A DNA stretch of 64,000 bases from Allorhizocola rhizosphaerae. GTDB taxonomy: Bacteria > Actinomycetota > Actinomycetes > Mycobacteriales > Micromonosporaceae. Location: contig NZ_QJUG01000007.1 of NCBI RefSeq assembly GCF_003426775.1, positions 1-64,000 of the forward strand. Reading direction: 5' to 3'. The translations under genes and the position numbers were made by a program. Below, piece by piece: positions 4,158 to 24,412 of this stretch. The notes below the pieces were generated by a model, which was not told the origin of the DNA, did not search any database, and saw only the letters and a program-made list of their open reading frames with translations. Positions within the stretch are counted from its first letter, which is position 1. The number at the start of each line of letters is the position of its first letter.

Positions 4158-6317
4158 CCGTTCTTTCAGATCCGCGAAGTCCTCGAAATCGGGCGTGCGC
4201 GCCAACACCTGCTCCACGATGCGATAGGCCTCATCGTCACGGCCCATCGCGAGCAGGATGCGCACCTTCGTGTCGCGGATGTAGTCGTAATCCGGCTCGG
4301 ACGCGAACGCCAACGCACGCTCCACAGTGGACAGTGCCTTGTCCAACTCGCCGCTCTTCATCAGATGCCACGCGAGCGCGTTGCCCGCCCGCCGCGTGAC
4401 CTCCTGCTGGAACGCGCCCTCGTCGGTGTAGTGCCACACCATGCCAGGTGGCGGCACCAGCGCGAGCGCCTCCTCCGCGTACCGCATCAGCTTTTCGGTC
4501 ATGTCGGTCTGCTCAAGCGCGACGACCAGCCCGTAGTGGGCATACAGCTGGTCATAGTCCGAGAACCGCGCGCCGGGCCGGCAAAGCGCGATCGCCTCCT
4601 CGAAGCGGGCGATGGCCTCCTCCGGGTCGGCACTGCTTCCCCGCTTCACGAGCTCGTGCACGGCCTGCCACGTCGGATGGTCGACCTCACCGGTGCGAGT
4701 GTCCACATTGCGCAGGTCGATGCGCACCTCCGGAAACACCTCTTGCAACCGATCCAATGTGGACGAGTCGAGCTTGGTGTAACGCAGGTCGGCAAACTCC
4801 AACCCTGCCAGACTGTAGAACGACTCGGGCAGTGTAGTCAGCTCGTTGAACGACAGGTCCAGCCGGCGCAGGTCGGACATGGCCGCGAACGCCTCGTCTG
4901 GCAACGCGGTCAACGCGGGCCGGCCGTCTTCCTCACCCCACCGGTCGATGCCCAACTCTTCAAGCGTGGCAATGCTCCACACACCGTCCAAAAGCGAGTT
5001 GCTCGGATAGCGGCCGGCGTTGCCGCTGCGACCGTCCATTCGCAACACTCGCAGCCGCGGCAGCTTCGCCAGATCAGGCAACCGCTCGACATGGCCGAGG
5101 GCGGCATCGAGATGCAACTCCTCCAGCTGTGTGAGCGCAAGCAGTTCATCGGGCACCTCGCCGAGGACCGCCAGCGTCAGGTCAAGTTTGCGCAGCCGCG
5201 GCAGTCGCGTGACCACCATCGGGAAGCCACCCGGGCAGTGCAGCCGGTACAGGTCCAGATCGACCAATGTGGACAACCGCGACAGCGCATCCGGGACAGG
5301 GCACTCCAGATCGCCGGCCCGCAACACTTCCAGCACCGGCAGATCACCGAGCTCGTCGGGCAGCGCTTGGAACCGGTTGCCGGAGATGTCAAGCACGCGA
5401 AGGTTTTTCAGCTGCCCCACCGCCGGGGTCAGCTCCTTCAGGCTGATGCCGGACAGGTCGAGCTCCTCCAGCGCAACCATCTCCGCCACCCGCTCGGGAA
5501 TGCCCGCAAGCTCGGTGTTGCGAGACAGCGACAGCTTGCGCAGGTGGGGAAACGCGAACAACTGCTCGGGAAACTCCCGCAGCCGGCAGTCCGCAAGGTC
5601 CAACTCGGTAACCTCAACCGCACTCTCAAGCAGCGCGTCCAGTTTGGACAAGGTAGCCAGATGCGCAGGCGTAGCCGTGGGGCGCAGAATCGGCCGCCCC
5701 TCCCGCAGCGCATCCTCCACTTTGTCCTCGTCGGCGCGGCCATCCCTGCCCAACAGCTCGGGCAGGATCACCTCGTCCAGCTCCTCGTCGGTGAAGTCGA
5801 CCGGGCAGTTCGTCCGGTACGGATCGCCGACCACCACCGCGTCCGGCTGCTGCGCGAACGTCAGGTTGAAGTACAGCGTGCTCACGATGATCTTCGCTCG
5901 GGTCGCGCCGCGCACCTCCAGAAAACCGCCGTCGTCGCCATGATGGCCCTGCACGCCGTTGTCGACCAGCAGGTCGCCCCGCACGACGAGGGTCGGGCAG
6001 CCGCGCAGGAACACGTTGCGGGCGCGCAGGGTGCCCGTGACGAGCACGAAGTTGCCGCTGCTCCAATCCCACCAGTCGAGGTCGCCGTCGACGGTCAGAT
6101 CCCCGTCGACGATCACGTTGTACCGTACCCAGTCGCCCGCGGACTCGGCGGCGAAGTCGCCCGCCACGTGCAGGCCGCCCTCGTACAGCCGGATCTCCTG
6201 TCCCTCCGCGAATTCCTGGTAGGGGTACTCGACGTCGCCGGAGACGGCAAAGCGCTCCTCGGCCTGTTCAGCGTCGATTATTCGGTACCCGGAAGAAGGC
6301 TCGGTGATGGCGGTCAT
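4137..6317 (-). CDS. Leucine-rich-repeat protein with beta-helical N-terminus and TPR C-terminus
   Basis: A 726-residue soluble protein with three parts. Residues about 25-150 carry beta-helix-like repeats (VIVDGDLTVDGDLDWWDW, LVTGTLRARNVFLRGC, LVVRGDLLVDNGVQ) recalling polymer-forming or bactofilin-like folds. Residues about 230-560 are canonical leucine-rich repeats (LRKLSLSRNTELAGIPE, LEELDLSGISLKELTP, LRVLDISGNRFQALPDE). The C-terminal 150 residues are TPR-like (ALVPPPGMVWHYTDEG, DKALSTVERALAF). No enzyme motif is seen, so a protein-interaction scaffold is likely. The frame stays open upstream to about 7589, but that part is antisense to the mannosyltransferase. The start at 6317 (MTAITEPSSGYRI) lacks an SD and is close behind a TATTCT element. 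Confidence 0.8.
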   Translation of the reverse strand: MTAITEPSSGYRIIDAEQAEERFAVSGDVEYPYQEFAEGQEIRLYEGGLHVAGDFAAESAGDWVRYNVIVDGDLTVDGDLDWWDWSSGNFVLVTGTLRARNVFLRGCPTLVVRGDLLVDNGVQGHHGDDGGFLEVRGATRAKIIVSTLYFNLTFAQQPDAVVVGDPYRTNCPVDFTDEELDEVILPELLGRDGRADEDKVEDALREGRPILRPTATPAHLATLSKLDALLESAVEVTELDLADCRLREFPEQLFAFPHLRKLSLSRNTELAGIPERVAEMVALEELDLSGISLKELTPAVGQLKNLRVLDISGNRFQALPDELGDLPVLEVLRAGDLECPVPDALSRLSTLVDLDLYRLHCPGGFPMVVTRLPRLRKLDLTLAVLGEVPDELLALTQLEELHLDAALGHVERLPDLAKLPRLRVLRMDGRSGNAGRYPSNSLLDGVWSIATLEELGIDRWGEEDGRPALTALPDEAFAAMSDLRRLDLSFNELTTLPESFYSLAGLEFADLRYTKLDSSTLDRLQEVFPEVRIDLRNVDTRTGEVDHPTWQAVHELVKRGSSADPEEAIARFEEAIALCRPGARFSDYDQLYAHYGLVVALEQTDMTEKLMRYAEEALALVPPPGMVWHYTDEGAFQQEVTRRAGNALAWHLMKSGELDKALSTVERALAFASEPDYDYIRDTKVRILLAMGRDDEAYRIVEQVLARTPDFEDFADLKERLGVLDE

Positions 6318-7665: not shown

Positions 7666-8865
<1,200 letters not shown>

Positions 8866-12676: not shown

Positions 12677-14284
12677 TCACCAACGTTTCAGCATTTCTCC
12701 AACGGCGGCGATATCGACTTTATGCACGTGATGGGGGTGCAGCACGATGCGCAGGGTGCGACAGACCGGAAAGGCCCGTGACGCGTCCACAAACGACTTC
12801 ATGGTGGACACCAAAAGGTCTTGATGATCTGCTTCCCTGATGCGCGATCGCGAGGAACCCACCAGGGGCATGTTCACATCGGAGAACTGCCCATGGCGAT
12901 GGACCGCTTGCCACAGCCGGTCCAGGCTGTGCTGCACCCATGACAACGATGATTGAGCAACCAGATTGTTGCCCATCCTGCTGTAGGCGAGGCAGAAGAT
13001 GGACCGCCGTCCCTCGCGCAGGACCGCCACCGTGCCCACCGGATAACGGACGAGCTTTCCCAGCGGCTTGTCTGCCCTGCGCTCGTACAGGAGAGGCTCC
13101 ACCTCGGCAAGCGAACGGTCCAGGTCACGGTCCAGCCGTTCGACATCGTGGCGGTAGATACGGGCAAGCAGCTGACCCTGGGCGCTGTCGCTGGCGATGA
13201 TGATGTCGTCTTCTGTGGAGGTGTCAAAGGTATCGGTGAAGCCGATGACCAGATCCTCCTGCGGCCACGAGAACAGGTCGCCCGCGACGATGGCGACGTG
13301 GACTCGCAGGCCAGTGAGCGTATGGACGAGCAGGACCTGCTGGTCGGCCGCCACCACTTCCCGCGCCGTTGCGATCATCCGATTAGGCCGACCGGTGTCA
13401 ATCGGAAGCGGCGCGATGTGCCCAAGCTGCACCGGCTCGGCACTGCCGTCCCGGTCCAGCACGGCCGCCGCAACAGCAAGCCCGAACGCGGCAGCGTGCG
13501 AGGCTGCCATCGGCTGAGCGCCGCCCCTGTCGGCCCAAGCCTTCTGGCCGTCGGCCAGATCACTGATGCCGCGCACCACCAAGACCGGCACGGACCGGTT
13601 GAGATGCCCGGCCAGGGCCACACCGGCACCCTCCATTTCGATCGCGACGGCGTCGTTGAAGTGCTCACGCAGCCATTGCCACATTGGCGTGCTACGTGAG
13701 TCGAGCACTACCTCCCCGGCGGCGATCGGCGCGAACCAGACGGTCGGAACGGTAGTCGACGGCGGCAACAGACGCGTCCAGGAGCGGGCGCGGTTGATCG
13801 CGCGGGCTCGTTGGTCGAGCTCGTGCGGCGCGTTCCACGCCTGCGGCCGGGCGTGCAGCGACACGCCATCGACGCGGCCACCGTGCAACGCGTAAACCCG
13901 TGTCGCGACAACGACATCGCCGATATTCAGGTTGTCGTGCAGGGCGCCGGCGACACCGATGAAAAACACGGCCTCAGGCTGAAACAGGGCGATGGCCCGT
14001 TCGGCCAATGTGGCCGTGGCGTTGTTGCCCACCGTGGTGACCGCGAGCGCGACGAACCCCGGACTGCCTGGCAACCGCCCCACCTCAAACAGAGTGCCGG
14101 CGGGGTGGGCAACCTCGGCCGGATCGGACAGGTGCGCCAGCACGGCCTGATACTCCAGATCCAGTGCGGTCAACACCACCACGATCGGCTCGACTCCCGC
14201 GGCCATCATAGATTCAATTGTGTCACTTTCCGAATGTGGTTCGGTTGCTGACCCAACAACGCTCGAAGAGCTGTGGCGATGCAC
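12677..14284 (-). CDS. Nucleoside phosphorylase/nucleosidase domain fused to ThsA-type Macro domain
   Basis: A 535-residue two-domain protein. Residues about 33-280 form a PNP_UDP_1/MTAN-like nucleosidase: VVVLTALDLEYQAVLAHL, FFIGVAGALHDNLNIGDVVVA, the MEGAG ribose-binding Glu (217-221), and RGISDLAD with the presumed catalytic Asp242. Residues about 325-535 match the Macro-like domain known from Thoeris ThsA (GDLFSWPQEDLVIGFTDTFD, SDSAQGQLLARIYRHD, RYPVGTVAVL, YSRMGNNLVAQS), a family that binds ADP-ribose derivatives. A plausible role is a nucleosidase effector gated by a TIR-made nucleotide signal (inference). The GTG at 14284 is used; ATGs at 14209 and 14206 are alternatives, and no SD is visible for any. 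It is divergent from the TIR-like gene. Confidence 0.8.
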   Translation of the reverse strand: MHRHSSSSVVGSATEPHSESDTIESMMAAGVEPIVVVLTALDLEYQAVLAHLSDPAEVAHPAGTLFEVGRLPGSPGFVALAVTTVGNNATATLAERAIALFQPEAVFFIGVAGALHDNLNIGDVVVATRVYALHGGRVDGVSLHARPQAWNAPHELDQRARAINRARSWTRLLPPSTTVPTVWFAPIAAGEVVLDSRSTPMWQWLREHFNDAVAIEMEGAGVALAGHLNRSVPVLVVRGISDLADGQKAWADRGGAQPMAASHAAAFGLAVAAAVLDRDGSAEPVQLGHIAPLPIDTGRPNRMIATAREVVAADQQVLLVHTLTGLRVHVAIVAGDLFSWPQEDLVIGFTDTFDTSTEDDIIIASDSAQGQLLARIYRHDVERLDRDLDRSLAEVEPLLYERRADKPLGKLVRYPVGTVAVLREGRRSIFCLAYSRMGNNLVAQSSLSWVQHSLDRLWQAVHRHGQFSDVNMPLVGSSRSRIREADHQDLLVSTMKSFVDASRAFPVCRTLRIVLHPHHVHKVDIAAVGEMLKRW

Positions 14285-14375
14285 AGATCAAACAGGCATT
14301 CGCACGCCCATGGCACACTTGACAGAGACCTCTGCGTTACTTCATCGACGCCCGGAGTGAGTACACCCAGCCGGT

Positions 14376-15143
14376 ATGGGCCCCTTGGAGATTCCGGACG
14401 TTACCTTACATAGACCCCTACCAGAACGTAGCCCCCATCGCGGGTTCGTGGTCCATGCTGCTTCCATGATATCCAACCAAGAACTTCACTCCATCCCACA
14501 TACCCGACAGCTGCCCCTGCAGATTTCCCGGCCTGTGGAGCCGACCGAGCCGCGTTCGGCGCGAGATGTGTTCGTGGTGCACGGGCGGGACGAGCAGTTG
14601 CGTGAGGAATTCTTCGATTTTCTCCGCGCGCTTGACCTGCGGCCGCTGGAATGGGAGACGATCGTTGCGGCGACCGGACAGACCGCGCCTTCCCTCTTGA
14701 CGGTGATTCTGACAGCCCTGAAGCACGCGCAGGCCATCGTCGTCCTTCTAAGCCCGGACGACATGGTCCAGCTTCACCCCTCGCTACGAGAACCACGCGA
14801 GCCGGTCCAGGAAGTATCACCGATGATGCAGCCTCGACCGAACGTGCTCGTCGAACTGGGCATGGCGCTGGCCAGTTGTCCCGAGCAGACGATCGTCGTA
14901 GAGGTCGGGCATTTGCGCCCGGTGGCCGATCTCGGCGGGCTGAACGTCATTCGCCTCGACACCGGTGAAGTGGCGCTTGGCAAGCTGGTCCAGCGGCTAC
15001 GGCTGGCGGGGTGCGACGTCGATGACGGCGGCTCCGATTGGCGCGACGGCCGGCGGTTCGCCAGTCTGGTGGCGCATGATCGTCGCCCAGTCCGGTCGGG
15101 TTGGATCGGCGGCCTGTACCGCCTGGGCCGTGTCCACCGATGA
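14376..15143 (+). CDS. TIR-like nucleotide-binding protein (PF10137 type), putative NADase
   Basis: A 255-residue protein. After a variable N-terminus, residues 64-212 form a TIR-like fold of the PF10137 group: DVFVVHGRDEQLREEFFDFL, LKHAQAIVVLLSPDDM and RPNVLVELGMAL. Glu160 in the last motif corresponds to the NAD-cleaving glutamate of TIR effectors such as TIR-STING. The C-terminal 40 residues have no recognisable domain. It is divergent from the nucleosidase-Macro gene (91 bp between starts) and is followed 193 bp later by the FxsT-like gene. FxsC of classical FxSxx systems is also TIR-like, but this protein is shorter. The start is uncertain, and an internal ATG lies at 14466. Confidence 0.8.
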   Translation: MGPLEIPDVTLHRPLPERSPHRGFVVHAASMISNQELHSIPHTRQLPLQISRPVEPTEPRSARDVFVVHGRDEQLREEFFDFLRALDLRPLEWETIVAATGQTAPSLLTVILTALKHAQAIVVLLSPDDMVQLHPSLREPREPVQEVSPMMQPRPNVLVELGMALASCPEQTIVVEVGHLRPVADLGGLNVIRLDTGEVALGKLVQRLRLAGCDVDDGGSDWRDGRRFASLVAHDRRPVRSGWIGGLYRLGRVHR

Positions 15144-15336
15144 TCGCGGGTGGCGAAGACCGACAAGCGCATTGCATTCTTCAGCCCACGCCAGGCGTGA
15201 CCACTAAGTCGTTGTTAGTAGGTTAGGATCTCTCCGGCAACAGCATGTCATTGATGGTTGTTTGTTCAACTGAGGCGTGCGATGCTTGGTGCCTGACATA
15301 ACTTGACGATAGTTGGCACGGTTCGGAGCGTGCTGA

Positions 15337-18237
15337 GTGGCGATCGTTCTGCCAAATAGTGATCGGCTGCCACCCGGGCCACGGCGTGAGTTCTTTGAGG
15401 CCCTACATGCCTTATACGACACCGCTGGCCGGCCGGGAGCTCGCGTCATCAGTCTTGCGATCCGCCGGAATCGTGATCTGCCAGAGACGGTGTCGCACGA
15501 AACAGTCAGCGCGGTGCTGCGCGGGGCCTCCGTGCCGAACTGGGCGAAGGTCCACTCCATAGTCTTGACGCTCGCCGAACTGTCGACCCGGGATTATGAT
15601 GTCCGCCACCTGATCCAGAGGCTGCAACAGTTGTGGCTGGCGGCCGGATCAAAGTCAAATCTGGCGTCGCCCGTCGCGCCGCAGGAGCTGAAGATCCCGC
15701 CAAACGTCAGCAAGGTCCCGTCAAGCATCAATGTGGAGCGTCCGGTCATTTCTGACAGCAAGATCGTCAGTGGATTGCCGGATCGCAATCCCTTTTTCAC
15801 CGGCCGCGAGCCCCTCCTGGTCGGCATGCGGGACCGATTGCAAGCCAACCGCCATGCCCCTCTGGTGCTGTACGGGCTGGGCGGCGCCGGAAAGACACAG
15901 CTTGCCCGGGAATACATCCATCGATACGCAGGTACTTACGCGATCATTTGGTGGGTGTCGGCGGACAGCGCTCAGCAGGCGCGCGCATCGCTCGTGGGCC
16001 TCGCCGACCGGCTGCCGGTGCCGATGCACAGCAGTGCCGAACAGACAGTCACTGGCGTGATCCGGCGGCTGGAGTCGGGCCTCTTGCACTACCTTCTCGT
16101 GTTCGACGGGGCCAAGGACACGGAGATCCGGCAACTTATCCCAGCGGTCGGCGGCCATGTGGTCGTGACCAGCCGCGACCCGCAGTGGGCGCATGATCCG
16201 GCGACTGTCGGTCTTGAGGTACCGGAGTTTGACCAGACGGAGGCCATCCAGTTCCTTCGCAGCCGCGGCAATCAGCTGTCTGATCAAGAAGCCAATCGGT
16301 TGATTGAAGCAACCGGCCTGCTTCCGCTCGCCCTCGAGCAGGTCGCCGCGCTACACGAGGCGACCGCACAACCCTGGCAAGAGCTGCTGGCCCAGCTGAC
16401 GGAGCCGGTTCCCGGTCTCCTGTCGGCCGTGCCACCGACTCACTATCCTCTTACGGTCTCCGCAGCGTTGCGGCTCGCTCTCGCTCAGCTCGCAGCGGCC
16501 AATCCAGTAGCCGTGCTGACCATCGAGTTGTTCGCCTGGTTCGGCACGGAACCGGTGTCCATCGTGCTGCTGCGTGCCGGCCGGACCGGCGACATGTCAC
16601 CACCGCTGGCACGTGCCTTGCGCGATCCGATCCAGCTCCGCAGCGTGATAGCCGATATCAACCGGTTCGGGTTGGCCCGCCTGAACGGCGAGACCCAGCG
16701 GATAGAAATACAGCCTCTGATGCGCCTCGCGCTAAGCGATGCCCTGTCATCGGAGGCACTGGAACGGGGCCGACACAACGTGCACGCGATCCTGGCGGCC
16801 GCCAACCCGGGCTGGCCGGACAACTTGGCAAGTTTTGACATGCACCGTGAAATGGCCGCGCACGTGTTGCCGTCCGGCCTCGTAGAGTCCACCGTGGACG
16901 CCGCTCGGCGGGCGGTCTATCACCAGATACGGTACCGCTTCCTCTTCGGCGACTATCGGGATGCGTGCGACCTGGCCGAAACGGCGGTCAAGACGTGGCA
17001 GCGGCCTGATAACTCCCACGGCCAGAACAATGAGTTTGCTCTGCTGGCCACCCGTGAGTGGGCTAACGCGCTCCGGGCGCTTGGTCAGTACCGGCGCGCT
17101 CGGGAAGTCACCGAAGACGGAATGAGACGGTTACTGGACGATCCGCGGTATGGCAGTGAACACGCGCACACGATCGCGATGGCCGCGGGCCTGGCCGCGG
17201 ACCTGCGAATCGCGGGGGAGTACCAGCGGGCGCTGCAAATAGCCGAAGAGAATTCCCGCCGGCACGTCGGCCTATATGGCCAGACAGACCGGCGCACTGC
17301 GGTCAGCCAACACAATCACGCCGTGAGCCTACGGCTTGTTGGCGACTTCGAGGCGGCGCGGGTTGTGGACAAGGTGTTGCTGGACCTCCATCACCAGACG
17401 CTCGGGATGGAGCATAGTGTGACCTTGCTGTCCATGAACGCGCTTGCCGAAGATTTGTACGGGCTCGGCCTCTACCACGAGGCGCTTGATGTGTTGCAGA
17501 CATATCTGCCCGCCCAAACCCGCATGCCGGGCTTCACCGACCGCGCAATGCTCCTGGCCGCCCGCACGGCCGCGCTTGTCCGTCGCGCGCTCGGTGCAGA
17601 GGCAGAGGCGCTGGAGTCGCTCCGAAACCACTATCACGACAGTGTCGTCTCATTGGGCTCCGATCACGAATACACCTTGGCCGCTGCGATGAGCTATGCC
17701 AACGCGCTTCGACAGTGCGGGCAGAACGAAGAGGCATACGTGCACGCCACGGACGCGTTGGGTGCATACAGGCGGACGTTGGGGCGGCGCAATCCGCTCA
17801 CTCTCGCCGCGGAGGTGAACCTGGCCGTCATCCTCCGTGCCCAGGGCGAGCGCCACCGGGCTGCTCAGGCCGACAGTCTGACCACTGAGGCGCTGCGTAA
17901 CACGGTCGGGGCCCAGCATCCGTTCACCATCACAGCACTGGTCAATCTTGCGACGGATCACTCGCAGCTAGGCGACGACGTAGGTGCCCGACGCCTATCG
18001 GAGAACGCGTATGAACTCGCCAAGCGGTTCCGCGGCGAGAGCCATCCGGTCGCGTTGGCGGCGGGAGCCAACCTTGCCCTCGACCGGATTGCCACCGGCG
18101 AGCCGGAGGGCGTCGCGCAGCTGGTAGACAGGGTGCTGGCGGGCATTCGGAATTCACTGGGCCCAGACCATCGGATGTTGACTGAGGTTGACAGTGGTCT
18201 CCGGATTGAGTGCGACATCGAGCCCCCCTCCACGTGA
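15337..18237 (+). CDS. fxsT: FxsT-like STAND NTPase: HTH, NB-ARC and TPR protein
   Basis: A 966-residue protein. Residues 15-100 form a helix-turn-helix-like region (GRPGARVISLAIRRNRDLPE, VSHETVSAVLRGASVPNW). An NB-ARC ATPase (about 150-430) has P-loop GLGGAGKTQ (180-188), Walker B LLVFDGAKD and sensor TSRDPQW. From about 520 onward it is tetratricopeptide repeats, ending in CDIEPPST. This architecture is that of the FxSxx-COOH-system TPR protein, a switch-like STAND protein found beside RiPP precursors. The usual FDNADD after Walker B reads FDGAKD here. The GTG start at 15337 has GGAG 8 nt upstream. It precedes the precursor, radical SAM and HExxH genes on the same strand and is probably the sensor or regulator of that set. 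Confidence 0.85.
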   Translation: MAIVLPNSDRLPPGPRREFFEALHALYDTAGRPGARVISLAIRRNRDLPETVSHETVSAVLRGASVPNWAKVHSIVLTLAELSTRDYDVRHLIQRLQQLWLAAGSKSNLASPVAPQELKIPPNVSKVPSSINVERPVISDSKIVSGLPDRNPFFTGREPLLVGMRDRLQANRHAPLVLYGLGGAGKTQLAREYIHRYAGTYAIIWWVSADSAQQARASLVGLADRLPVPMHSSAEQTVTGVIRRLESGLLHYLLVFDGAKDTEIRQLIPAVGGHVVVTSRDPQWAHDPATVGLEVPEFDQTEAIQFLRSRGNQLSDQEANRLIEATGLLPLALEQVAALHEATAQPWQELLAQLTEPVPGLLSAVPPTHYPLTVSAALRLALAQLAAANPVAVLTIELFAWFGTEPVSIVLLRAGRTGDMSPPLARALRDPIQLRSVIADINRFGLARLNGETQRIEIQPLMRLALSDALSSEALERGRHNVHAILAAANPGWPDNLASFDMHREMAAHVLPSGLVESTVDAARRAVYHQIRYRFLFGDYRDACDLAETAVKTWQRPDNSHGQNNEFALLATREWANALRALGQYRRAREVTEDGMRRLLDDPRYGSEHAHTIAMAAGLAADLRIAGEYQRALQIAEENSRRHVGLYGQTDRRTAVSQHNHAVSLRLVGDFEAARVVDKVLLDLHHQTLGMEHSVTLLSMNALAEDLYGLGLYHEALDVLQTYLPAQTRMPGFTDRAMLLAARTAALVRRALGAEAEALESLRNHYHDSVVSLGSDHEYTLAAAMSYANALRQCGQNEEAYVHATDALGAYRRTLGRRNPLTLAAEVNLAVILRAQGERHRAAQADSLTTEALRNTVGAQHPFTITALVNLATDHSQLGDDVGARRLSENAYELAKRFRGESHPVALAAGANLALDRIATGEPEGVAQLVDRVLAGIRNSLGPDHRMLTEVDSGLRIECDIEPPST

Positions 18238-18404
18238 CGAAACTTGACGCTCTTCCGCGCGTTCCTGACGCTGACCAGAGTGTATTTGCTGCTGATGCGA
18301 AATAGGATCTCCTCAAACGACAGAGCATGGTGCCGGGGCCTAGGCGCCTCGGTGGCGTGACCGGTTTGTGGCCTCGGCTCATGCCTTCCGAGTGGGGGTC
18401 AACC

Positions 18405-18602
18405 ATGGAAAACGCGTCAACGACAGACAATCCGACCTGGCCGCCGTTGCTCGACGTAACTCGGCGGCCGATGGTGGAGCTGCTCGCAAACGGCGACACG
18501 GCACTGGCGCGGTGCACCAATCGGTTGATCCGAAGTCTTGATGACCCCGACGGCGTGATCTCAGCCTTCCAAAACTACGCCTTCCAGAACTTAGCTTCGT
18601 GA
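18405..18602 (+). CDS. fxsA: RiPP precursor peptide, FxSxx-COOH-like with tandem FQN core
   Basis: A 65-residue peptide. The N-terminal leader PPLLDVTRRPMVELLANGD, then RSLDDPDGVISAF, resembles FxsA leaders. The C-terminus is F55-Q-N-Y-A-F60-Q-N-L-A-S65, two consecutive FQN(Y/L)A units. Classical FxsA ends FxSxx; here the Ser is Asn, twice. Phe-x-Asn is a three-residue cyclophane (triceptide) motif used by related radical SAM enzymes, so crosslinking of Phe to Asn at both units is predicted. The ATG at 18405 has GGGGG 6 nt upstream, and longer in-frame starts (18327, 18381) are less likely. Its TGA overlaps the GTG of the radical SAM gene (GTGA), indicating translational coupling. Confidence 0.8.
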   Translation: MENASTTDNPTWPPLLDVTRRPMVELLANGDTALARCTNRLIRSLDDPDGVISAFQNYAFQNLAS

Positions 18603-19852
18603 TCGACAGGGTCTCCACCGAGGTCGTTCGAGCGGCGCAGCGGGAGGCCGCCGCATGGCCATACCGCGAGCTCGACCTGGCACGCTTGCGGGCCGATGGT
18701 TGGCACCCAACGCCGATCCACGATCTCATACTCAAGGTTCATCAGCGCTGCAATCTCGCGTGCGATTACTGCTTCGTGTACACGCAGGCCGATCAGACTT
18801 GGCGCGACCGCCCGGCGGTGATGCCTGACGAAGTTTGGCGCGCTGCAGTGGCAAGTCTCGGCCGTCATGTCCGGCGACATCGGCTCAGCGGTGTCAGAGT
18901 GATCCTGCATGGTGGAGAGCCGCTGCTGTACGGTGTGTCCCGCCTCGGCCTGCTGGCGAGCGAGTTGCGCGCCGAAATGCCCGCCGGGTGCAAGGTGCAC
19001 ATCGGCCTGCAGACCAACGGAGTTCTGCTCAACGAGAAGGTAATAGGCTCACTGCGGCAGCATCGGATCATGGTCGGAGTCAGTGTCGACGGGGTCGAGG
19101 CAGACCACGACCGGCACAGGGTCGGACCGAACGGCCGGGGCAGCTTCGCCGCTGTCCGGGACGCGATTGATCTGCTTCGCCGGCCGGAGAACCGGTCCAT
19201 CTACGGGGGACTCCTGTGCACGGTCGCGCCCGAAACCGATCCAATCGCGTGCTACGAGCAGCTGCGTGCCTTCGAACCGCCGATGATTGACTTTCTGCTG
19301 CCACACGCCAACTGGGAGCGTCCACCGAGGCGTCCAGCCGGCACGACCACGCCATACGCCGACTGGCTGGTCAGGGTGTTCGATCGGTGGTATGACGAGT
19401 CCGACGCGATCAGTGTTCGGTTGTTCGAGGACATCATCACGCTGCTGCTCGGAGGCGGCGGGCAATCCGAGCAGGTCGGGCTCAGTCCATCGGCCATGGT
19501 CGTCGTCGAGTCAGATGGGGCGATCGAGCAGGTGGATTCGCTGAAGTCGGCGTATGACGGGGCGTGCGCGACCGGCCTGAACATTCTGCACGACGACCTT
19601 GACGCGGCCCTGGAAGATCATGGCATTGTCGCGCGGCAGATCGGCCGGGCCGCTCTGTCGGCGCACTGCCTACAGTGCCCAGTCCACCAGGTCTGTGGTG
19701 CCGGCCATTATGTGCACAGATACCGACCTGGTTCCGGCTTCCGCAATCCATCGGTGTACTGCGAGGACATGCGGATTTTGATCGGGCACATTCGCGACCG
19801 TGTCGCGGCGGAGATTCGGCAACGGGAGACCGAGGTCGTGGAAGCACGATGA
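18599..19852 (+). CDS. fxsB: Radical SAM/SPASM RiPP maturase (FxsB-like, triceptide type)
   Basis: A 417-residue enzyme. The radical SAM cluster motif is C51-x3-C55-x2-C58 (VHQRCNLACDYCF), followed by the SAM-contacting HGGEPLL (104-110) and the VDG strand. The SPASM region has Cys357, Cys360, Cys366 and Cys388 (AHCLQCPVHQVCGAGHY, GFRNPSVYC) and Cys323. This matches FxsB-family maturases, which join an aromatic ring to a beta-carbon to form a cyclophane. The expected substrate is the preceding FQN-FQN peptide. Unlike FxsB proteins that carry a C-terminal metallohydrolase-like extension, this one ends after SPASM and the extension is a separate gene. GTGA and ATGA overlaps couple it to both neighbours. 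Confidence 0.9.
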   Translation: MIDRVSTEVVRAAQREAAAWPYRELDLARLRADGWHPTPIHDLILKVHQRCNLACDYCFVYTQADQTWRDRPAVMPDEVWRAAVASLGRHVRRHRLSGVRVILHGGEPLLYGVSRLGLLASELRAEMPAGCKVHIGLQTNGVLLNEKVIGSLRQHRIMVGVSVDGVEADHDRHRVGPNGRGSFAAVRDAIDLLRRPENRSIYGGLLCTVAPETDPIACYEQLRAFEPPMIDFLLPHANWERPPRRPAGTTTPYADWLVRVFDRWYDESDAISVRLFEDIITLLLGGGGQSEQVGLSPSAMVVVESDGAIEQVDSLKSAYDGACATGLNILHDDLDAALEDHGIVARQIGRAALSAHCLQCPVHQVCGAGHYVHRYRPGSGFRNPSVYCEDMRILIGHIRDRVAAEIRQRETEVVEAR

Positions 19853-21150
19853 CAACGACGACATACCACATTCTCGGACCGGAAACACTCGATAAGCTTG
19901 CCGAAGGCGGCGGCGGTCCGGCGGCCATCGACGAGCTGCGTTCCGCACAACTCAGCAAGCATCTGCTGCTTGCCAGATATCTTCTGGAGCAGTGGCCCGG
20001 CCCCGCTTCCGAACGCGACGCCATTGCCGATGCACTCGATCGGGCCCGCACCGAGGGCCCGGACAGATTCGCGGAAACGTTCGGTGCGCCGCTGGTCGGG
20101 GCGTGGAGTGCGATCACTGCTCAGGCGGGCAGCCGGGGACAGGCCTCCGAGGCGGATTTCCGTCATCTAGGCGCCGTAACCATGGTCGCCTGCGCTGCGG
20201 CCGGTGTCGACGGCGAGGCCAGTGCCCCGATCCGGGACAACCAGATCGCGATACCAGGTCTGGGTGTGGTCGTCGCTCCCCCGACGGCGGATGCGGCGCG
20301 GTTGGTTGCCGGCGACGGTCGCCTCACTGTCTACGCCGGCGATACGGTAATTCACCTACCGCACGAGCCCGAGGTCGAAAGCTCGGTGTGGCTGCCGGTG
20401 CGGTCTCTAGCCGGCGCGGCACCGAGACATTCAATCGCCCTGAGTCTCGACGACCTGGATCCGTATCGGCACGGTCACCATGCACCGCCGGCCCCCCGGC
20501 TGGCTGCCGCGGAGGTGGACCTATGGCGCCGCTTGTTTGCCGAGGCTTGGCAGCTGCTTGCCGAGCATTTACCGGAGCGAGCCGCGGAGCTTGCCGCGGG
20601 CCTGCGGACCCTCGTACCACTCCAGCAGAAGGATAGGCACACCTCGCGGAGTGCCACGATCCGGCACGCGTTCGGTGTGTTCGGATTGACCCGGCCGCAA
20701 TCCGCAGCGGACTTCGCGGTGACACTGGTACATGAGTTCCAGCACTCAAAGCTGAGCGCAATACTCGACCTGACGTCGCTTAGCGACCCGCAGGACACCC
20801 GCCGATACTTCGCTCCCTGGCGAACGGATCCCCGGCCGTTGGCCGGACTGCTTCAAGGGGTGTACGCGTTCGTCGGCGTGGCGGACACCTGGCGGGCGCT
20901 GCGTGCGGTCGATGGCATGACCGAGTTGGCCGAGCAACGCTTCGCCGAGGCACGGCTGCAGGTCGACAGCGGACTAGCCGCGATCGAGCAATCCGGCGCG
21001 CTCACGACGGCAGGCGGGCGACTAGCCACCCGTCTGCGCCACGCCACCGACACGTTGTTGGCTTCGCCGGTTCCCATCGCGACCGCTCAAGCCGCCGAAC
21101 GCGCGCTGGAGCAGACGCGACGGCAGTGGCTTGAGCGCAACCGACCGTAA
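19849..21150 (+). CDS. Stand-alone HExxH peptide-modification enzyme (aKG-HExxH hydroxylase type)
   Basis: A 433-residue protein of the HEXXH-motif peptide-modification family (TIGR04267-like). The intact metal motif is VHEFQHSKL, His295-Glu296-x-x-His299. Downstream is the family signature YFAPWRTDPRPLAGLLQGVYAF (320-341). A related domain fused to radical SAM triceptide enzymes has been shown to be an Fe/alpha-ketoglutarate beta-hydroxylase rather than a protease, so beta-hydroxylation of the cyclophane peptide is the leading prediction. In many FxsB fusions this domain is inactivated; here the metal ligands remain. The ATG overlaps the radical SAM stop (ATGA). It converges on the next gene with only 7 bp between stops. 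Confidence 0.85.
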   Translation: MTTTTYHILGPETLDKLAEGGGGPAAIDELRSAQLSKHLLLARYLLEQWPGPASERDAIADALDRARTEGPDRFAETFGAPLVGAWSAITAQAGSRGQASEADFRHLGAVTMVACAAAGVDGEASAPIRDNQIAIPGLGVVVAPPTADAARLVAGDGRLTVYAGDTVIHLPHEPEVESSVWLPVRSLAGAAPRHSIALSLDDLDPYRHGHHAPPAPRLAAAEVDLWRRLFAEAWQLLAEHLPERAAELAAGLRTLVPLQQKDRHTSRSATIRHAFGVFGLTRPQSAADFAVTLVHEFQHSKLSAILDLTSLSDPQDTRRYFAPWRTDPRPLAGLLQGVYAFVGVADTWRALRAVDGMTELAEQRFAEARLQVDSGLAAIEQSGALTTAGGRLATRLRHATDTLLASPVPIATAQAAERALEQTRRQWLERNRP

Positions 21151-21157
21151 TGGCAGG

Positions 21158-24100
21158 TTATGTCGGCGTCGACTCGATGTCACCCTCGGTGCGCTGACCC
21201 TGTTCTATCGCGGTGATCTGAGGATGATCCTCGCCGAGGGCCTCCCGCAAACCCGCGATCGACTCTGCGAAGAGCGCATCCGATCCCTGCTGGTCGCCTA
21301 TCGCCCGGAGGTCGTGCGCCAGATTGATCGCTCGCATCAGGGCGTAGGGATGCCTGGCGCCGCCACGCGCCTCATGCCCGTGACCCGCCAGGTGAGTGCT
21401 GAGTTCCAGCATTTGCCTTGAGAGCTCCGCGGCAGCCTCATGTTCGCCGGCGAGTGCGTAATCGGTCGCGAGGGACGCACCAGCGCAGACCGTGTACGGA
21501 TGATCCGGCGCGAGCACCCGGGTCAACTCCCGATAGCAATGCTGGTCCAGCTCGCGGGCACGGTCCGGTTGCTGGCACGCGCGAAAGAGGATCGCCTGGT
21601 TGACCAGCGCCACAAGAGTGAGTGGATGAGAAGAGCCGAAATTTTCTTCATACAGTGGCAGAGTATCGGCCAACTGGCGCATCGCCTCGTCGAGCTCGCC
21701 CAACTCTCGCAACACATTGGCGTAGCTGACGTTGATGGCTACCGAAAACTCGTGCACGAGTCCGAACCGGTTGTGCACCCGCTCCTGATTCTCTTGAATG
21801 ATCTCGGCGGCCTCGGATAGCCTGCCGGCCTTTCGCAGTAAGATGGCGTGCGTGCGCCCGGCCAGGAGCACCTGGCTGTGCCTCGGGCCCACAAGCTCCA
21901 ACAACGGAGAGCGCCACCGCTCCAGCACGTCCAGGCCCGCCTGGTAGGCACCCATACCGTAGTAGCTGCGAGCCATGTTGATGTATGCGGACAGCGCGCG
22001 GTGGTCGCCCGCACCAACAGTTTCCCAGTGCGCGGCGACGTCTCGATCCAACCGAAGCGCCTCGGCGAAATTGCCGACCATGCGCTGGTCGACTGCCAGG
22101 TTGCTTTGCGCGCGCAGCGTATATACCTCGGTTGGCCCGAACACTTCGCGGTGCAACGCGAGCAACTCCTGGTCGAAGTCGAGTGCCTCCTGATAACGGC
22201 CCTGGATCCGCAGATCGTGCCCGATCTGGTTACCCGTGATCAGCGTGATTTCATGCTGGGGCCCGAGGTCCGGGTTGCGCCGCAGCCGATCGTACGTATC
22301 GCGGGCCAGCAGAGCGGCGGGTCCACTGTCGCCAAGGGTCCGCATGGCGTTGGCCGCGCGTGCACGTGCCACCAGTGTCAGGTCCCCGTCGGGCCCCAGC
22401 CGGGTGCTTGACATGTCCTGCTCCCAGGCTTCCGCAGCCTGCAGCGCGAGCCGTCGACTGTTCTCGTAGTCACCCACGAGATACAGATAACGCGTGTGGT
22501 CCAGGACAGTCTGCCGTGCAGCCATGCTCTCGGCGTGGATCAGATCAGCCGGTTCGATGTGCGGACCCAGTTCACGTTGCCGGTGCAGTTCCCCTTGCTC
22601 ATCCGGGTCACCCGGATTGGCCGCGGCCAGTATGACTTGAACATTCTTCATCGCCTGCGCCGCCAAATCGGTGGGCAGGCTGTCCCGCAGGACGCGTTGC
22701 ACAAGCCGGTGTACCTGAATCCGCTGCGTCGGATCGACCTTTGCCAGACCATAACGGCTCAGCGTCCGGATGGCGCGGTTAACCGGGATGGCGGCACCCA
22801 GCATCTCGCGCAACGGCTCAGAGACATCAGCGTTCTTACCGTCGCGCAGGAGCGAGACTGCAATCGGCTGGCCGCCCAAATAGGCGAAAAGTTCGAACAG
22901 CTGAGCAGTTGCCGGGGCAGTCGAACGCAGTTCCTGTATGGCGAGGTTGACAAATGCCGCCACGGTCACCGGGTAGCCTGGCGGCTTGCCCTCAGACAGC
23001 AGATCCTTGATATGAGTGTCGAGAAGGGTGAGGTATTCGTTTATCGGCATCGCCGTGGCCAAGTGCCACGCAGCGGCCTGTTCCAGGGCTAGCGGCAGGT
23101 CGCCGAGTTTGTCCGCCAGTTCGTCCGCCTCGCCGATGGTGATGCGGAAGTTCCCAGTATTGTCGTCCTGTGTGCGCCTCTGCAACAGTTCCACACTCTC
23201 GTGGCGTTCAAAGACATCCACTTCAATGGCCTGGCCGACGGTCGCCCACTCTTGGTTGCGCGAGGTGAGCACGACGTGGCCGCCGGTTGACGGTATGAAT
23301 TGATCGAGCGAGCCCAGGTCGTCGGCGTTGTCGTAGACCAGTAGCCAGGCCAAGTCGCTGCTCGACAGGGCGTCGAGCACTGTCCGCGCGGTCTGCTGTG
23401 GATCCTCGACAGTGGTGGTCAGCCCAAGTCGCTCCGCGAGTTGCGACAGCGACGTGAGCACGCTTGAGGTGTGCTCAGCGGGTATCCACCACACCAAGTC
23501 ATACTCATCGATATTGCGGTAGACATACTCGACGACCAACTGGGTCTTGCCCACGCCGCCCATGCCTTGCAGTGTCTGCGGCAATACGGAGGCTTTGGAG
23601 CTGCTTCGCAGGGCCTCACTGAGCCGGTTGAGAAGCGCCACTCGGCCGATGAAATTCCGGTTGCGGATCGGCACACCGCCGCCCCAGATGACTCCGATGT
23701 GTGGCGGTTGGTTCTCTCCGGTCAAGGTGGCCGTGCGTTCGTCCGACGGGACGTGTGACTGCCGACGTCCGGCATCGCCATGTTCGCCTTTGGCGCCAAG
23801 GACAGCGAGGGTCGTGACGTCCGCACCGAGACCGCCGGCCACCATGTTGATCCACTGACGCAGCTCCACCGATCTTGGCTCACCCACGACGGAAGCCAGC
23901 CGGCTAGTGAATTTCAATAGTTGCGAAATGCCGTCCCCTGGGAGCGGCAAACGTTCCATCACACGGATCGCCGCCGGAATATCCTTCCAGCTCTGCAACG
24001 AACGCAACTCGTCGGCACCGACCAGCTCGCCCAGCGCATCGGCGACTTGCACGATGCCTATGGCCGTGAGATGGACGCTCAATGACTCCCGGTCAGCTGG

Positions 24101-24412
24101 CGACAGCACGGAGGCGCCCACCAGATCATCCACGAGCACCGCGACACGCGAGCTTGCTTCGCCCGGGTAGCGCCGCCGCAAAAGTGCCGCCAGCGTGCGC
24201 AGGCCACCGGAATATGCCATGCAAGATTTCGTTAGTGACACCAGATCGTCGCGGCTATCAGGGGGCCGCGGCGAGTCAAAAGGCCGATGCAGGACGGACC
24301 TCAACTCGCCGGCCAACGCCTCCCGCGCACCGGAATCGGACAGCTCCGGCACCTCCAGGAGCGCATCGACGATCAGATCGACATTCCCACGAGCATCAAC
24401 GACGTCTGACAT
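21158..24412 (-). CDS. Second STAND NTPase: effector-associated domains, NB-ARC and TPR
   Basis: A 1084-residue protein. Residues about 11-97 (VDLIVDALLEVPELSDSGAR, LTKSCMAYSGGLRTLAALL) look like an effector-associated domain of bacterial conflict systems. Residues about 100-195 look like a second helical adaptor of similar kind. NB-ARC occupies about 252-500, with P-loop GMGGVGKTQ (283-291), Walker B LLVYDNADD and TSRNQEW. TPRs run from about 590 to the end, finishing GDIESTPT. The NB-ARC/TPR part parallels the FxsT-like protein at 15337, including the Asp-Ile-Glu C-terminal tail, but the N-terminus is an adaptor rather than HTH. It converges on the HExxH gene. It probably recruits an effector with a matching adaptor, which I do not see in the window. 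Confidence 0.8.
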   Translation of the reverse strand: MSDVVDARGNVDLIVDALLEVPELSDSGAREALAGELRSVLHRPFDSPRPPDSRDDLVSLTKSCMAYSGGLRTLAALLRRRYPGEASSRVAVLVDDLVGASVLSPADRESLSVHLTAIGIVQVADALGELVGADELRSLQSWKDIPAAIRVMERLPLPGDGISQLLKFTSRLASVVGEPRSVELRQWINMVAGGLGADVTTLAVLGAKGEHGDAGRRQSHVPSDERTATLTGENQPPHIGVIWGGGVPIRNRNFIGRVALLNRLSEALRSSSKASVLPQTLQGMGGVGKTQLVVEYVYRNIDEYDLVWWIPAEHTSSVLTSLSQLAERLGLTTTVEDPQQTARTVLDALSSSDLAWLLVYDNADDLGSLDQFIPSTGGHVVLTSRNQEWATVGQAIEVDVFERHESVELLQRRTQDDNTGNFRITIGEADELADKLGDLPLALEQAAAWHLATAMPINEYLTLLDTHIKDLLSEGKPPGYPVTVAAFVNLAIQELRSTAPATAQLFELFAYLGGQPIAVSLLRDGKNADVSEPLREMLGAAIPVNRAIRTLSRYGLAKVDPTQRIQVHRLVQRVLRDSLPTDLAAQAMKNVQVILAAANPGDPDEQGELHRQRELGPHIEPADLIHAESMAARQTVLDHTRYLYLVGDYENSRRLALQAAEAWEQDMSSTRLGPDGDLTLVARARAANAMRTLGDSGPAALLARDTYDRLRRNPDLGPQHEITLITGNQIGHDLRIQGRYQEALDFDQELLALHREVFGPTEVYTLRAQSNLAVDQRMVGNFAEALRLDRDVAAHWETVGAGDHRALSAYINMARSYYGMGAYQAGLDVLERWRSPLLELVGPRHSQVLLAGRTHAILLRKAGRLSEAAEIIQENQERVHNRFGLVHEFSVAINVSYANVLRELGELDEAMRQLADTLPLYEENFGSSHPLTLVALVNQAILFRACQQPDRARELDQHCYRELTRVLAPDHPYTVCAGASLATDYALAGEHEAAAELSRQMLELSTHLAGHGHEARGGARHPYALMRAINLAHDLRAIGDQQGSDALFAESIAGLREALGEDHPQITAIEQGQRTEGDIESTPT

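Follow-up and report, generated by a model that had tools for sequence, protein, structure and literature searches.

The window analysed here, a stretch of 64,000 nucleotides from the soil actinobacterium Allorhizocola rhizosphaerae, carries a gene for what is, judged by homology and alignment, a real, lineage-specific form of the precursor peptide FxsA, ending in two adjacent five-residue core units, FQNYA and FQNLA; the F-x-N motif by itself is not new. The tandem unit, the homology of the precursor, the synteny of its locus and the intact motifs of the adjoining enzymes are direct observations. We lean slightly towards a proposal in which this FxsA-type precursor would receive two Phe-Asn cyclophanes from the maturase FxsB, would be hydroxylated by an HExxH enzyme and would act as a signal linked to TPR proteins.

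The gene cassette

The features of the locus are given below, with positions counted along the window.

12677..14284, reverse strand: PNP-Macro protein, in which a nucleoside-phosphorylase-like domain is joined to a Macro domain of the ThsA type (PF20016, 3.7e-55), encoded divergently to the TIR gene
14376..15143, forward strand: accessory TIR protein of the CAP12/Pycsar type (PF10137, 1.7e-24)
15337..18237, forward strand: NB-ARC/TPR STAND protein (FxSxx-COOH system TPR protein; NF040586, 737 bits; PF00931, PF13424), upstream and co-directional
18405..18602, forward strand: FxsA-type precursor of 65 aa, with a leader followed by the tandem core FQNYA-FQNLA-S, placed from the ORF list, relatives and alignment
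18567..18581, forward strand: core unit 1, FQNYA, on the family's invariant Phe, with the aromatic at +3 (Y) kept
18582..18596, forward strand: core unit 2, FQNLA, the extra unit that relatives are without, at the usual C-terminal distance
18599..18602, forward strand: GTGA stop/start overlap of precursor and FxsB
18599..19852, forward strand: FxsB-family radical SAM/SPASM maturase (TIGR04269, 448.8 bits against a cut-off of 370)
19849..21150, forward strand: aKG-HExxH-type peptide beta-hydroxylase (TIGR04267, 167.6 bits against a cut-off of 40; HEFQH intact)
21158..24412, reverse strand: EAD2 - VMAP-M0 - NB-ARC - TPR protein (NF040586, 844.7 bits; PF19956), convergent

The order TPR-FxsA-FxsB-HExxH-convergent TPR is matched by ten intact Micromonosporaceae loci, and the domain order of the convergent protein is kept in the four relatives scanned. 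Judged from gene content and order, the cassette (NB-ARC/TPR, FxsA, FxsB, HExxH, convergent EAD2-NB-ARC/TPR) is the standard one for the family. No match to the TIR gene was found near relatives' cassettes in 80 loci. The PNP-Macro and CAP12-type TIR genes possibly form a Thoeris-like pair with a PNP effector; in 251 family genomes, every other match has a best-scoring stretch that spans essentially one half of the fusion, either PNP or Macro. GC3 across the block 12677-24412 lies at 0.73-0.77, against 0.82-0.94 in the four flanking genes tested, which suggests that the block is an acquired, defence-like island.

FxsB lies directly 3' of the precursor, overlapping it by 4 bp (GTGA), and the radical SAM gene named in an earlier reading made from the sequence alone proves to be this intact enzyme, with its TIGR04269 match and its conserved cysteines in the CxxxCxxC motif (C51, C55 and C58) and the SPASM region (C357, C360, C366 and C388). 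Of 117 columns with at least 90% conservation among 29 relatives, it matches 114, and its nearest solved structure is ChlB (9gm3, E 5e-76). A search for FxsB residues that follow FxN versus FxS gave nothing convincing, only S314; unusual residues in the window's enzyme are F59 and H341, the former otherwise seen only in locus L060. The hydroxylase gene in turn overlaps FxsB by 4 bp, and its protein matches ChlH (8s5f) among solved structures. The same protein also matches PDB entries 22nu/22ob, described as 'Radical SAM core domain-containing protein', at E 1e-53, far better than it matches ChlH.

The precursor and its tandem core

The precursor ORF runs from ATG 18405 to TGA 18600-18602, in agreement with the coordinates of the sequence-only reading, and encodes MENASTTDNPTWPPLLDVTRRPMVELLANGDTALARCTNRLIRSLDDPDGVISAFQNYAFQNLAS. 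A possible earlier start exists at ATG 18327, but the relatives' alignment begins at about 18405, which backs the start adopted here. The C-terminus reads VISA-FQNYA-FQNLA-S, the underlying DNA being TTCCAAAACTACGCC (TTC CAA AAC TAC GCC) for unit 1, TTCCAGAACTTAGCT (TTC CAG AAC TTA GCT) for unit 2, and then TCG TGA. Two five-residue units are thus present as that reading had described, though they are not the perfect copies it took them for: they are identical at four of five residues and 11 of 15 bases, differing by two synonymous changes (CAA/CAG and GCC/GCT) and by one altered codon, TAC (Tyr) to TTA (Leu). Unit 2 is consequently without the aromatic residue at +3 that unit 1 and most relatives keep (FQS[YF]). 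The TTA codon, at 18591-18593, is one of the eight Leu codons of the precursor, larger genes having zero to two TTA codons each; in some actinomycetes, TTA codons are tied to developmental control via bldA.

A sequencing or assembly error would account for a repeat observed a single time in a draft assembly of 493 contigs. However, the copies differ at four of 15 bases, whereas an artefact should have left them identical, and the reading frame runs on intact into the stop/start overlap; we regard such an error as scarcely credible.

Membership of the FxsA family

TIGR04268 scores the precursor at 19.7 bits, under its 28-bit cut-off. Among ten syntenic relatives, eight also score below the cut-off and two pass, D. 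aurantiacum (37.4) and V. aurantiacum (31.8), so the cut-off fails to separate the clade. The literal C-terminal F-x-S-x-x is likewise absent, both units being F-x-N, with YA and unit 2 following in the case of unit 1 and LAS closing unit 2. The best phmmer match among relatives is again that of D. aurantiacum (7e-19). In an alignment of 16 FxsA sequences the invariant columns are D17, D47 and F55, all of them present in the precursor; since unit 1 begins with F55, the motif is not a chance occurrence and unit 1 sits exactly on the family core. The assignment to an FxsA-type precursor made in the sequence-only reading is therefore borne out by homology, alignment and synteny. Because the cut-off and the F-x-S-x-x end are missed, yet eight of the ten syntenic relatives miss the cut-off too, we class the precursor broadly with the FxsA homologues, as a variant and no textbook FxSxx-COOH member.

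FxsA-like precursors were found in 42 of 355 family genomes in a family-wide search, the window counted. From named genomes, 80 FxsB loci were taken. The cores of the Micromonosporaceae relatives are single (FQSYASS, FQSFTS, FESFVET, FQSFASER, FGSFVSDS and others). The substitution of Asn for the classical Ser, as previously proposed, does hold for both units but is not unique to them, single F-x-N tails occurring in other FxsA: FQNFAPDD in L044, FDNYAGDP in L018, L019 and L023, FDNFAGEP, and FDNSISSN in L060.

Other arrangements of precursors were also seen. In Paractinoplanes deccanensis (L044), two FxsA-like precursors flank one FxsB, at 5649-6005 (+) and 8474-8722 (-), with the cores FQNFAPDD and FDNYAGDP. 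In L046, L047, L053 and L059, two consecutive FxsA-like precursors lie 3' of the HExxH gene, at about 8.3-9.2 kb, and several of them have YAAH-type tails, not F-x-S. When a second FxsA or FxsB was sought in the window's own genome, the FxsB cut-off was exceeded at the precursor locus only, and the other FxsA-like hits were unconvincing.

Rarity and origin of the tandem

Orthologues had been expected to conserve the FQN units, and this check failed: the syntenic relatives examined have one F-x-S unit. No other adjacent double unit was found in 94 distinct FxsA-like tails (some of them weak matches) and 18 class-level candidates, in a searched set where the window's genus is represented by one genome. 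Automatic 'tandem' flags in the tail survey were judged by eye, and each flagged tail proved to have one core and, incidentally, a further aromatic. Two of 355 family genomes contain the pattern FxNxxFxNxxx-TGA; the match other than the precursor, FRNLVFRNLYG in G053, comes from a chance ORF that lacks an FxsA leader. Across 395 class genomes, FxNxAFxNxA outside the precursor returned unrelated ORFs only, and a plasmid search gave no match. Matches in viral contigs were rejected, since they are either FQNDAFQNDAFQ repeats, lying within long proteins or close to their start, or a short ORF fragment; the proteins with these repeats in L177, L178, L179 and L180 measure about 400-750 aa and have no relation to FxsA.

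In the FxsB tree, the window falls within a clade of 16 rows, supported at 100/99, in which every known core is F-x-S, which indicates that Asn and the tandem are both derived in the window's lineage. AAC encodes Asn in both units, suggesting that the Ser-to-Asn change came earlier than the duplication. The 4-bp stop/start overlap is common to several relatives (L037, L032, L033, L045, L040, L031 and L035), so the gene end is old and the 15 nt of the extra unit were inserted in frame ahead of it; the shared overlap also rules out unit 2 as read-through of an old stop. On these sequence comparisons, the best account of the tandem has two steps: Ser was first replaced by Asn, and a 15-nt segment was then duplicated in tandem, in frame, ahead of the ancestral stop/start overlap.

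Such a duplication could be recent, neutral and functionless, in a non-essential or decaying precursor, and the singleton status of the tandem and the rare TTA codon inside unit 2 fit that description. We nevertheless consider it very unlikely, given that the frame, the stop/start overlap, the active-site motifs of FxsB and the HExxH enzyme, and both TPR genes are intact, and that the copies are non-identical yet retain FQNxA. Simulating four random substitutions in 15 nt gave at most one residue change in about 4% of runs, and the few residue changes between the units are only a hint of selection.

The proposed product

We take MscB to be an FxsB-type enzyme, which is our reading of its accession, IPR026335. 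MscB links Phe C4 to Ser C-beta, XncB and OscB link Phe C4 to Asn C-beta (PMC11002830), and with these precedents Phe-x-Asn fits the three-residue cyclophane rule, as the sequence-only reading had argued.

We infer two cross-links, a hydroxylation and a signalling role for the product. In this mechanism, FxsB would recognise the precursor leader and would join the Phe ring by a C-C bond to C-beta of residue three (i to i+2). With the third core residue changed to Asn and the five-residue core duplicated in frame in this lineage, FxsB would form two three-residue Phe-Asn cyclophanes in succession, F55-N57 and F60-N62, with a predicted mass shift of about -4 Da. Some residue in the cross-linked core may afterwards receive a beta-hydroxyl group from the HExxH enzyme; ChlH hydroxylates Asp and His once the cyclophane is in place (PMC12636437). 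The product would most likely work as a cellular signal, or as a ligand, tied to the NB-ARC/TPR proteins on either side, and not as an exported antibiotic.

Two consecutive cross-links are plausible because Phe-Asn cyclophanes are known and because the nearest solved structure, ChlB, is called a multiple-cyclophane synthase in a title listed among the references of PMC12636437. Against the double cross-link, the tandem is a singleton with no orthologue carrying a second unit, unit 2 is without the +3 aromatic, and the characterised MscB works on Phe-Ser, not Phe-Asn; in its favour, the differences between units spare F, Q, N and A, the 4% simulation being weak in this respect. Several of these points bear on another outcome, in which only one unit is cross-linked, FxsB measuring either from the leader (unit 1) or from the C-terminus (unit 2), and the other unit is a spacer or tail. 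The D47-to-F55 spacing from leader to core, constant across the aligned relatives, favours unit 1, while unit 2 sits three residues from the C-terminus, as FQSFTS does; the loss of the aromatic from unit 2 and the single core of the relatives also agree with one cross-link. The second unit, on the other hand, keeps F, Q, N and A despite four base differences, and the nearest solved relative is the multiple-cyclophane maker just mentioned. We judge the single cross-link fairly unlikely, and the doubly cross-linked product would be, by a modest margin, the likeliest outcome.

Comparison with known systems

The closest likeness is to the FxSxx-COOH system (FxsA TIGR04268 and FxsB TIGR04269, for example the MscB-type triceptide), with which the locus shares a short precursor directly upstream of FxsB, a C-terminal Phe-x-small/polar core, and an adjoining HExxH enzyme and FxSxx TPR protein. 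Here, in contrast, Asn replaces Ser, two adjacent units stand in place of one, and the TIGR04268 cut-off is missed. To ChlB/ChlH, the locus is related through its two enzymes, homologous to ChlB and matching ChlH, and through the several cyclophanes per peptide that are predicted here; there, the radical SAM and aKG-HExxH enzymes are fused, whereas here they are separate genes acting on a Phe-x-Asn repeat core. With the XncB/OscB triceptides (XYE and GRR types), it would share the Phe C4-Asn C-beta cross-link (PMC11002830), but these have maturases of other families, and TIGR04496 and TIGR04261 score far under their cut-offs on the window's FxsB.

The standalone FxSxx peptide-processing conflict system outlined in PMC7159879 likewise combines an FxSxx peptide, a radical SAM-SPASM enzyme, an HExxH 'zincin', an AP-ATPase with TPRs and an EAD domain. 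The passage of that source dealing with the system mentions a MinD/ParA-like domain, not seen here in a Pfam scan, and describes no tandem core. It predicts that FxSxx peptides, linked to AP-ATPase/TPR proteins, act as a toxin or as a signal, and takes the HExxH protein as a peptidase; a hydroxylase is now the better reading of this 'zincin'.

Implications

The precursor could be the first FxsA-family peptide in which a standalone FxsB makes two adjacent cross-linked Phe-Asn cyclophanes, serving as a lineage-specific bivalent signal to NB-ARC/TPR immune-like proteins, although we hold this full reading to be unlikely. The tandem core nonetheless offers a naturally occurring test of whether a standalone FxsB, usually found with single-core substrates, can process repeats and accept Asn for Ser, and its two near-identical units are a simple substrate for measuring the order and spacing of FxsB action. 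If the peptide is a ligand of the flanking NB-ARC/TPR proteins, its bivalent core would offer a handle on how bacterial NLR-like systems are triggered.
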